Shown here: positions 11,801 to 15,685 of the stretch, piece by piece
Numbering within the stretch: position 1 is the first letter of the stretch
How the letters are laid out: every line of letters begins with the position of its first letter
IMG/VR virus record: IMGVR_UViG_3300017779_000157
Coordinates: 1-23,749 of that record
DNA from: a virus
DNA length: 23,749 bases
Strand: one strand, 5' to 3'
Program-made: the position numbers and the translations under genes
The notes under the pieces: generated by a model
The model's input: the letters and a program-made list of their open reading frames with translations, nothing else
Told to the model about the DNA's origin: nothing
The model's database searches: none

Positions 11801-12268
11801 ATGGCATATGCTTCGGACAAAAACGCTTATGGAATATCTGATCGATCCGGATTTCGGTATCGTCTAAAAGACATGCGCGTTGAGTGGACCGGAGCTAAGG
11901 TAGGTAAGGACGAGTTTGAAACAAAGCACCCGCAGCTCTTCCCTCCTCGGGTTGGGCCCGATCCTCAAGCATTAAAAAACCCACGGCCTGAGTCTAATCT
12001 AGAAGAGCAAAGAAACTTTCAATATGGGTGGAACCCTGTCGGTGGTATTGGGGATGGAATCTTAACACCCAATACGTTTATTCTTAAAGGTGAAGTTGGT
12101 AATATCACTATAACCATAGGCCCTAGTCAGGAAGATGTTGCCAATGTCGTAGGTGTTTATGGCACTGGCGCTTTAGGTTCTGTCACCATACCCTCAGCTT
12201 CAGCACCAAGATTTGACAGCACATCTATTACACTAGACTCAACAACCGATACTTTTGATGAGGGATAA
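11801..12268 (+). CDS. Structural protein with one copy of the GTG-beta unit
   Basis: A 155-residue protein with GAGGG six bases before ATG 11801. The N-terminal part (MAYASDKNAYGISDRSGFRYRLKDMRVEWTGAKV, then FETKHPQLFPP and DPQALKNPRPESN) is a conserved opening that I associate with structural proteins downstream of the adaptor in marine phages. The C-terminal part includes V-V-G-V-Y-G-T-G-A-L-G-S-V-T-I (about residues 116-130), a single unit of the beta repeat that fills the protein at 14525-15685, and ends in FDSTSITLDSTTDTFDEG. It is likely a small tail or neck component. No enzyme motif is seen. Confidence 0.72.
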   Translation: MAYASDKNAYGISDRSGFRYRLKDMRVEWTGAKVGKDEFETKHPQLFPPRVGPDPQALKNPRPESNLEEQRNFQYGWNPVGGIGDGILTPNTFILKGEVGNITITIGPSQEDVANVVGVYGTGALGSVTIPSASAPRFDSTSITLDSTTDTFDEG

Positions 12269-12271
12269 GAC

Positions 12272-12922
12272 ATGACTTTACAAAGCGTAGGAATAGGAAG
12301 CAGTGCAAATGATGGCAATGGGGACACCCTTCGTTCTGGTGCCACTAAAATAAATGCGAACTTCACTGAGATATATGCGGCTCTTGGCAACGGCACCACA
12401 CTTACAGATATAATAGACGGTAACGGTCTTATTAATGTAAGTTCTGGAGCCAATAAGATAGTTTTCTATTATGCTAGTTTAAGCGACTTACCTAGCGCCG
12501 GGACATATCACGGCGCGGTAGCGCATGTTCATGCGACAGGCGGGTTATATTTCGCACATGGTGGAGCGTGGATTAGGTTAAACGATGAAACAACTGGTCC
12601 TGTTACGCAGTATACTGCGGGTGTAAACGGATCGACTGCTTATACATTTACTGGGCCTGGCGCCACATCTGGAAACAACCCAAACTTTACTTTCTACAAG
12701 GGACACACGTATCTGTTAAACAACACGGCAAACGTAAGCAGTCATCCATTGCAGATAAGAGTAGCTTCAGGAGGTTCCGCTTTCACAACGGGTGTTACGG
12801 ACAACTATAATTCAACGTCAGGGTTAACACAGTTCATTGTTCCTCACGAACCCTCTGACAGTTCTTTGGTCTATCAATGCACCAACCACAGTGGTATGGT
12901 CGGAAACATAACAATAGTGTGA
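12272..12922 (+). CDS. Fibre-like protein with C-terminal cupredoxin-like domain
   Basis: A 216-residue protein starting three bases after the previous stop. Residues 6-38 hold the motif GIGSSANDGNGDTLRSGATKINANFTEIY, common at the N-terminus of marine phage tail fibre proteins. Residues about 112-216 look like a beta sandwich with a copper-type ligand pattern: His158 (in SSHPL), then Cys203-T-N-His206-S-G-Met209 close to the C-terminus, preceded by the strand LVYQC and followed by VGNITIV. Cys-x2-His-x2-Met is the ligand-loop spacing of amicyanin. The domain could bind copper or only keep the fold. There is no signal peptide, so it is not a free periplasmic carrier. It probably decorates the tail. 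Motif seen; copper binding inferred. Confidence 0.75.
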   Translation: MTLQSVGIGSSANDGNGDTLRSGATKINANFTEIYAALGNGTTLTDIIDGNGLINVSSGANKIVFYYASLSDLPSAGTYHGAVAHVHATGGLYFAHGGAWIRLNDETTGPVTQYTAGVNGSTAYTFTGPGATSGNNPNFTFYKGHTYLLNNTANVSSHPLQIRVASGGSAFTTGVTDNYNSTSGLTQFIVPHEPSDSSLVYQCTNHSGMVGNITIV

Positions 12923-12926
12923 TGTC

Positions 12927-13790
12927 ATGAGCTTTACTTATAGTACTTTAAAGACAGCAATCCAAGACTACACTGAAAACGATGAAACTGGGTTTCTTCG
13001 TAACCTTCCTTTGTTTATTGAAATGACAGAAGAAAGAATACTAAAGAACGTTCAACTTACTACATTTCAAAAAAATGCTTCTGGTGTGTTAAGCCAAAAC
13101 AATCAATTCTTACAAACACCTTCTGACTTCATTGCCCCGTTTTCTTTAAGCATGACTGTTAACAATGAAAAAGTTTTCCTGCTGTTTAAAGATTTAGATT
13201 TCGTACAGACGTACAATCCAAACCCTGCAACAACGGGTGTTCCTATTTACTACGCTCAGTTTGATGATGAGAGTTTTCTTGTAGGGCCAACACCAAATTC
13301 AAATTATACGGTGGAGCTAGCTTACTTTTATAGGCCTACAAGTTTAACTAAAAGCAACTTTACTCTGACCATGGGCCTGAGACAGGCGGGGGCTACTGCA
13401 TTTACTACTGGAGAAACGGTTACTGGAAATCTAAGTGGGCAGTCAACTACCGTTGCTTCCGTTCCTTCTGTTATTACTCTTGAGGTTCAAATTCCATCTG
13501 GATCTTTTACTGTTGGAGAAACAATAACGGGATCAAGCAGCGGAGCATCGGGGGCTATTACGGCCATCGGCCCAGATACCACCACCACTTTTCTTAGTGA
13601 CGATGGAAGGATGACCTTGTTGTATGGGTGTTTGTCTGAAGCATACACATACATGAAAGGTGATGCTGATATGATGACCTTGTATGAAGGTCGATTTAGA
13701 GAGGGATTGTCCAGGCTTAAAAACTTGGGAGAGGCGCAAGAGATTGCAGATGAATATCGTTATGGTCCGATCCGGAAAGCTAGAACATGA
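12927..13790 (+). CDS. Adaptor-like tail protein with inserted beta module
   Basis: A 287-residue protein. The N-terminal ~145 residues (YSTLKTAIQDYTENDETGFLRNLPLFIEMTEERILKNV at 5-42, LQTPSDFIAP, and YYAQFDDESFLVGPTPNSNYTVELAYFYRP) and the C-terminal ~70 residues (FLSDDGRMTLLYGCLSEAYTYMKGDADMMTLYEGRF...) together form an adaptor-like fold seen in marine podovirus tail proteins. Between them, about residues 150-216, lies a Thr/Ser/Gly-rich insert with two related halves (TTGETVTGNLSGQSTTVAS and TVGETITGSSSGASGAITA). The gene is AT-rich (41 GC of 120 bases in 13021-13140). It likely sits in the neck beside the 11134 protein. ATGA overlap links it to the next gene. Confidence 0.72.
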   Translation: MSFTYSTLKTAIQDYTENDETGFLRNLPLFIEMTEERILKNVQLTTFQKNASGVLSQNNQFLQTPSDFIAPFSLSMTVNNEKVFLLFKDLDFVQTYNPNPATTGVPIYYAQFDDESFLVGPTPNSNYTVELAYFYRPTSLTKSNFTLTMGLRQAGATAFTTGETVTGNLSGQSTTVASVPSVITLEVQIPSGSFTVGETITGSSSGASGAITAIGPDTTTTFLSDDGRMTLLYGCLSEAYTYMKGDADMMTLYEGRFREGLSRLKNLGEAQEIADEYRYGPIRKART

Positions 13791-14524: not shown

Positions 14525-15685
14525 ATGCCACTACCTTTTTCTGGCTGGGGCCGTGGCGGTTGGAGTTCTGGCTCTTGGAATAGCTTACAAGTAGGTGTAT
14601 CCGTTACAGGCGTAGCGGGTACAGGGGCTGTTGGTAGCGTAAGCACTACCAGTGGTGTTACTCAACCTGTCACGGGTGTATCGGGTACAGGGTCAGTAGG
14701 CTCTGTAACGGTTATTGGCGCAGCAAACCTAACGGCTACAGGTCTGACAGGCACTGGGTCAGTAGGCTCTGTAACGGTTACTGGAGTCGCAAACTTAACT
14801 GCTACAGGTATAACAGGCATTGGGTCCGTGGGGTCAGTGACCACTACGGGCGTAGCTAACATAGCAGCTACGGGGGTTAGCGGCACATCTGTGCTTAACA
14901 CTGTTGTAACTGAGTCTGATGGTAATCTTACGGTACTGGGCCTTAATTCTATAGGATCAGTCGGTACAGCATCTGTATCGTCAAACTCAGTAATTCCTGT
15001 AACGGGTGTTTCTGGGACAGGTTCAGTAGGTGCCGCTACATCTAGAGTTGGTATTAACGCCAACATAACAAGTGGTGTGGTAGGTACAGGCTCGACAGGT
15101 AGCGTTACAATAGACCTAACGGCTAACATACCCGTAACAGGGGTCACAGGTACAGGCGCAGTAGGCAGTATAACTCAAACGAGTTCTGTAAACCAGTTAG
15201 CAACAGGGGTTGTTGGCACTGGGGCAATAGGTACTACAAGTAATACCAGCGGCGTAAATCAGACTGTAAATGGTGTATCGGGTACAGGTGCTTCTGGTTC
15301 GGTAGCTGTAAGCGCCAAGGCTAATACTACTGCAACAGGAGTATCTGGCACTGGCGCGGTAGGCAGTATAACGCAGACAAGCTCTGCAAATATACCAGCC
15401 ACAGGAGTATCTGGCACTGGCGGTGTTGGCTCTGTAACTATAACAGGCGTAGCTAACCACACCGTTACTGGTGTAGCAGGCACAGGGTCTTCGGGCGCTT
15501 CAACTATTGATTTTGGGTACTATGCCACAGGGGTAGCAGGCACAGGCGCTGTAGGTACTGTTAGTGTAAACCAAGAGTTTTCTGTAACGGGCGTATCTGC
15601 TGTAGGAGAGGTAGGTAATAATGCGTTTGTTTGGAACGAGATTATCCCTGATAACACCGCAAATTGGAAAAAGATTGCGTCTTAA
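14525..15685 (+). CDS. Beta-repeat structural protein (16 GTG units)
   Basis: A 386-residue protein with AAAGGGATAA before ATG 14525. Residues 1-26 (MPLPFSGWGRGGWSSGSWNS...) form a Trp/Gly-rich head, residues 27-367 are about 16 units of ~22 residues with core [VA]-T-G-V-x-G-T-G-x-V-G-S-V-T, and residues 368-386 (FVWNEIIPDNTANWKKIAS) form a compact tail. Two units (fifth and sixth) are degenerate. Charged residues are almost absent in the repeats, which suggests a beta-solenoid or a chain of beta hairpins, as in fibre shafts. It lies directly upstream of the tail fibre and might be a second fibre, a spike shaft or a decoration. The unit also occurs singly in the genes at 11801 and 20550. Function inferred from composition and position. 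Confidence 0.78.
   Translation: MPLPFSGWGRGGWSSGSWNSLQVGVSVTGVAGTGAVGSVSTTSGVTQPVTGVSGTGSVGSVTVIGAANLTATGLTGTGSVGSVTVTGVANLTATGITGIGSVGSVTTTGVANIAATGVSGTSVLNTVVTESDGNLTVLGLNSIGSVGTASVSSNSVIPVTGVSGTGSVGAATSRVGINANITSGVVGTGSTGSVTIDLTANIPVTGVTGTGAVGSITQTSSVNQLATGVVGTGAIGTTSNTSGVNQTVNGVSGTGASGSVAVSAKANTTATGVSGTGAVGSITQTSSANIPATGVSGTGGVGSVTITGVANHTVTGVAGTGSSGASTIDFGYYATGVAGTGAVGTVSVNQEFSVTGVSAVGEVGNNAFVWNEIIPDNTANWKKIAS
14603..15625 (+). repeat. About 16 degenerate 66-bp coding repeats
   Basis: In-frame units of roughly 66 bases, each encoding TGVxGTGxVGSVT and a variable spacer. The core is well kept at protein level but the DNA has diverged, so the array is old or under diversifying exchange. 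Some neighbouring pairs (for example around 14690-14830 and 15330-15440) are closer to each other at DNA level, suggesting recent local duplication. Confidence 0.85.

Follow-up and report, generated by a model that had tools for sequence, protein, structure and literature searches.

The motif His plus Cys-x2-His-x2-Met in a tail-type phage protein raises the question of whether a marine virion carries a true copper site, and what such a site would do there. The window (the whole stretch of DNA that was analysed, 23,749 nucleotides) encodes a 216-aa protein for which the preliminary description claimed a cupredoxin-like domain at 12605-12922, with His158 and Cys203-x2-His206-x2-Met209 as an amicyanin-type ligand set, fused to a fibre-type N-terminus. 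All four residues lie where they were placed, and the span is correct within a few codons, residues 109-216 corresponding to about 12596-12919. We consider it fairly likely, taken as a whole, that a virion appendage here bears a genuine cupredoxin whose type 1 copper site is intact. The protein is laid out as follows.

12272..12922, + strand: ORF of 216 aa with a gp9/gp10-type N-terminus, a His-rich middle domain and a C-terminal cupredoxin
12281..12451, + strand: T4_gp9_10_N domain, residues 4-60, the probable virion-docking and oligomerisation end (Pfam and a profile match to T4 gp10)
12455..12592, + strand: middle domain, approximately residues 62-107, with the His cluster H80, H85-x-H87 and H96 (counted in distinct copies)
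12596..12919, + strand: cupredoxin domain, residues 109-216, equivalent to the C-terminal domain of PHROG 677 (phrog_677, AlphaFold2, structural match)
12743..12745, + strand: His158 (CAT), predicted first copper ligand, within an H-P-L/F motif
12878..12880, + strand: Cys203 (TGC), predicted thiolate ligand
12887..12889, + strand: His206 (CAC), predicted second His ligand
12896..12898, + strand: Met209 (ATG), predicted axial ligand, replaced by Gln in a minority of relatives

The N-terminus can now be sharpened from fibre-type, which was correct, to T4_gp9_10_N (PF07880). Residues 4-60 score 26.1 bits against a Pfam cut-off of 25 and align to positions 2-60 of 175, the first third of the profile only. 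A profile of the relatives matches T4 gp10 residues 2-41. No signal peptide is visible at the N-terminus of the 216-aa protein. Judged from homology and gene order, the protein is probably located in the virion. This placement is based on the match to phrog_677, the T4_gp9_10_N domain, the position between connector and adaptor genes, and the similar domains found on proximal tail fibres.

The fold of the C-terminal domain was examined with two AlphaFold2 models. In the model of the whole protein (98 rows) the domain has pLDDT values mostly between 85 and 95, and the remainder is less certain. The domain modelled alone (approximately 108 residues) reaches a pLDDT of 88.9 and a pTM of 0.82. When the domain model was compared with the PDB (Foldseek, realigned), all of the best 50 matches listed were copper proteins, with Z from 8.6 to 11.0. 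Hyphomicrobium nitrite reductase matches best, through its N-terminal cupredoxin (2dv6_A; Z 11.0-11.1, 2.2 Å over 94 residues); rusticyanin and two-domain laccases come next, with Z about 9. As Foldseek gives the domain moderate TM-scores (about 0.43-0.58), the Z after realignment is the more reliable guide. The cupredoxin fold that had been proposed from the letters alone is therefore what structure prediction and overlay on known copper proteins recover.

Sequence kinship to copper proteins emerges at the level of the family. The domain of the 216-aa protein as a single sequence has no cupredoxin match in Pfam or NCBIfam, PF00127 included, and phmmer with the same domain found nothing in the PDB. 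In contrast, a profile built from 14 phage domains places amicyanin first in the PDB (E 1.3e-4), then copper nitrite reductase (1.7e-4) and more amicyanins, and its first non-cupredoxin matches appear only at E about 0.3. Recognition thus needs a family profile or a model. The profile alignments to amicyanin and nitrite reductase put Cys, His and Met on copper ligands; in HMMER, His158 coincides with the His ligand of nitrite reductase but is shifted by one residue from that of amicyanin. In hhalign, 90 phage domains align with amicyanin at E 3.8e-6 with all four residues on ligands, so the proposed amicyanin-type spacing is borne out against real type 1 copper proteins. Pfam Copper-bind (PF00127) is matched by 32 of the 90 members at E up to 0.1, and one relative, S-CAM4, is above the cut-off (21.5 versus 21.2). 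Another Pfam family, PF25489 (At5g54830-like), also gave weak matches in 32 of the 90 members; a one-genome search with controls found nothing and the lead was left unused.

The domain has the ligand spacing of amicyanin but is not an amicyanin. The amicyanin model TIGR02657 (cut-off 110.2 bits) does not match the 216-aa protein, and relatives score 14.5-17 bits. In plastocyanin and amicyanin the first His ligand is followed by an Asn that braces the Cys loop. Here the residue is Pro159, and Pro rather than Asn occupies the position in 238 of the 245 copies that have a residue there.

The conservation of the ligands is nearly absolute. Among 251 distinct copies, 229 read HCHM, four read HCHQ, three have none of His/Cys/His, and 15 are cut off or incompletely aligned. 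His, Cys and His are thus kept in 233 of 236 complete copies and absent together in three, with no partial set, and the axial Met is exchanged only for Gln where the site is otherwise intact. Gln is a known alternative axial ligand in stellacyanin-type sites. This all-or-none loss, with Met to Gln as the sole change in an intact site, is what a working type 1 site predicts. One of two further IMG/VR scans used a pattern containing the ligands. A ligand-blind scan, in which copies were chosen solely by the strand preceding His158, gave 16 non-redundant copies (HCHM in 14, HCHQ in two). The invariance count of one alignment from which copies lacking a complete site had been excluded is not counted as evidence here. 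The four ligand positions fall within the seven most conserved columns of 57 domains sharing less than 70% mutual identity. Across the 50 distinct DNA sequences of the close family, dN/dS is about 0.04 and the ligand codons vary synonymously (CAT/CAC, TGT/TGC). A chance motif is ruled out by the conservation of the four ligands, and a frameshift or false ORF by the dN/dS. Together with the structural and profile matches, these data make a cupredoxin fold with a type 1 copper site very probable. The option raised earlier, that the domain lost its copper and kept its fold, is disfavoured for the 216-aa protein; the three site-less copies elsewhere lost His/Cys/His together.

Some of the copies are of interest in their own right. 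Two of cyanophage type (L271:1981-2292 and L268:1981-2292) have Gln for the axial Met (YYWCHHHTGQG), as in stellacyanin-type sites. Degenerate copies in which the ligands were lost together are at L206:4117-4398, L248:2530-2802 and L169:4297-4956.

The phage is pelagiphage-like. Its capsid protein is 71% and its portal 45% identical to those of HTVC023P, and HTVC027P is also among its named relatives. Two neighbours flank the cupredoxin gene.

11801..12268, + strand: upstream neighbour, 155 aa, also kept by related phages without the cupredoxin gene (BLASTP: HTVC023P, HTVC027P, 023Pt_psg01, CRP-901, DSL-LC04)
12927..13790, + strand: downstream neighbour, SU10-type adaptor (Pfam SU10_adaptor, E 1e-18)

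As far as detected, the orthologues of these two genes are directly adjacent in HTVC023P, HTVC027P, 023Pt_psg01, CRP-901 (where the downstream orthologue is a weak match only, E about 1e-9) and DSL-LC04. The cupredoxin gene is therefore an insertion here, between two connector genes. Within the close IMG/VR family the upstream neighbour is kept at all 74 loci with room upstream, and the downstream neighbour, by the same measure, at 61 of 75 loci with room downstream. In 023Pt_psg01 (L102:2694-3791) a cupredoxin with the same site (HQI ... CTAHSGM) is fused to the N-terminus of the SU10-type adaptor. Given the insertion in one case and the adaptor fusion in the other, the domain is a mobile virion module that was used more than once within one phage group. 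Further along, 14525-15685 encodes a 386-aa protein of VTGVSGTGSVGSV-like repeats, and this repeat type recurs at the end of the 155-aa neighbour (11801-12268); in CRP-901 both proteins resemble one fused gene.

The domain is not peculiar to this phage. Residues 107-216 align with positions 301-409 of 412 in phrog_677 (baseplate wedge tail fiber protein connector) at E 6e-44. Two stretches of the protein match this profile, the best on its C-terminal quarter, and the 216-aa protein is about half the profile length. At E up to 1e-5, tblastn detected the domain in 315 phage records, whose names are those of cyanophages or marine viruses, with roughly 32-44% identity among the matches listed; most are annotated as the baseplate wedge tail fibre connector. 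P-SSM2 and S-CAM1 have it in their proximal tail fibre proteins as well, and further large proteins of cyanophages contain it. IMG/VR holds 576 relatives of the domain, and the two further scans confirmed more than 560 each, at least. A DNA search for near phage records returned none, the domain was not found in a plasmid search, and a scan of genome contigs gave one match, a bacterial cupredoxin lipoprotein. The arrangement had been called unusual: the domain does sit on a tail-type protein without a visible signal peptide, but it is widespread in marine phages. No report of a cupredoxin domain on phage tails was found in the literature searched, which was largely open-access. Hundreds of marine phages conserve the domain, and this points to metal-bearing tails, with copper the probable metal, on many virions of the ocean.

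The middle domain contains a second cluster of His residues at 12509-12559 (H80, HVH at 85-87, and H96). The pattern is HHHH in 48 and DHHH in three distinct copies; H85, H87 and H96 are kept in these 51, and H85 and H87 are lost together in all others. In T4 gp37, HxH motifs form iron sites, and such sites have been proposed for marine phages (PMC11705849). The cluster in the middle domain is possibly a second metal site, to judge from the residues that are retained.

How would such a protein work? The gp9/gp10-type N-terminus would dock the protein to the tail or connector, probably as a trimer, with the C-terminal cupredoxin projecting outward. The site would take up copper, or possibly another metal, after the virion leaves the reducing cytoplasm. 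Copper is very low in the bacterial cytoplasm, and so loading probably follows assembly or release. By locking the exposed domain, the metal may make it a rigid module that resists proteases, and the locked module may contact the next fibre protein or the cell surface. A metal-locked appendage domain of this kind is preferred on two grounds: baseplate proteins repeatedly carry the domain at their distal end and fibre proteins contain it too, and no redox partner is visible. That the site binds copper in the virion seems probable to us; that its role is structural or in attachment, rather than in electron transfer, is about an even call.

The same fold could hold Zn or Fe, or be filled opportunistically, with the metal purely structural. 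Intracellular assembly would favour Zn over Cu, and iron-binding HxH sites are known from phage tails (PMC11705849), with an HxH cluster adjoining the domain in this very protein. However, His, Cys, His and Met/Gln in amicyanin spacing on a cupredoxin fold are the type 1 copper set, and a conserved Met with Gln as its only substitute is atypical of Zn sites. We regard another metal as rather unlikely.

In a redox or sensing domain, reversible Cu(I)/Cu(II) cycling at the host surface would tune attachment or trigger the tail. The type of site is that of electron carriers and its ligands are kept as strictly as an active site; in addition, plastocyanin and copper enzymes are present outside the cytoplasm of marine hosts. 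On the other hand, no redox partner is visible within the 23,749-nt window, and it is hard to see what circuit a one-electron carrier attached to a virion would serve, which leaves a redox role decidedly unlikely. A broader proposal combines several of these elements: the virions of abundant marine cyanophages and of pelagiphage-like phages would be copper proteins, their type 1 tail site would be filled from seawater or from the periplasm of the host, and attachment or tail firing would be controlled by the metal or redox state of that site, beside a second His-based metal site in the same protein. This is conceivable, though we would not expect it.

A copper version of the 'Ferrojan horse', in which bound copper mimics a metal ligand for a metal receptor in the host outer membrane, borrows from the iron version, which was put forward for marine phage tails carrying HxH sites (PMC11705849), and the named-phage matches to the domain are almost all marine. 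It appears highly doubtful: a cupredoxin site lies buried and its copper is held tightly, the iron idea is itself unproven, and no receptor is known.

A fold-only adhesin, in which the metal was lost and the residues were kept for packing, is very improbable: three copies elsewhere did lose the site yet keep the fold signature, so the metal is not needed for the fold, but packing alone predicts single-ligand losses, of which His/Cys/His show none in 236 complete copies, and the axial residue varies only to Gln in intact sites.

The preferred reading, a metal-locked cupredoxin on the appendage, has wider implications. So far, discussion of metal on phage tails has been confined almost entirely to iron. 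If marine cyanophages do have a conserved type 1 copper site in their gp9-like baseplate protein, and if it was transferred to a pelagiphage-like tail protein, marine virions would join the pool of copper ligands. A domain hitherto labelled only by its baseplate position would gain a name that bears a function. If the reading is true, the colour, copper content and copper-dependent adsorption of cultured cyanophages offer a direct and simple experiment.

Several known systems resemble this protein in part. The plastocyanin gene petE of cyanophages is a separate metabolic gene (PMC3037559), and a petE-like auxiliary metabolic gene is ruled out here, as no leader can be seen and the domain is joined to a docking domain. 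Among bacteria, plastocyanin-like lipoproteins and a fasciclin-type protein (Gemmatimonadota) come close; these are cellular rather than virion proteins, and most have lipoprotein-like leaders. One bacterial plastocyanin-like lipoprotein (L099) has an FSYQCTNHSGM loop, and in two Gemmatimonadota sequences (L342 and L343) a fasciclin-repeat protein carries at its end an HPF-type cupredoxin with C-x2-H-x2-M that may be a cellular cousin of the phage domain. To our knowledge, T4 gp9 and gp10 themselves have no cupredoxin domain. Likeness to their N-terminal domain (PF07880; PDB 2fl8, 5hx2) is limited to the docking end, residues 4-60. The HxH iron sites of T4 gp37 and Alteromonas phage R22Y (PMC11705849) share the presence of metal on the tail and the HxH motif of the middle domain; their iron, however, is bound octahedrally between the chains of needle fibres, whereas the putative type 1 copper site here lies within one chain. 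The gp9-like proteins of marine cyanomyoviruses (PHROG 677) have the same domain in their C-terminal 108 or so residues, with all four ligands kept, but are about 390-500 aa long, against 216 aa here, and belong to contractile-tail phages. Closest by profile and structure are amicyanin (PDB 1aac) and copper nitrite reductase (2vmj; the N-terminal domain of 2dv6), which share the fold and the ligand spacing. These are enzymes or electron-transfer proteins exported to the periplasm, and Asn follows their first His, whereas the phage domain has Pro at that position, comes without a signal peptide, and is fused to a docking domain.
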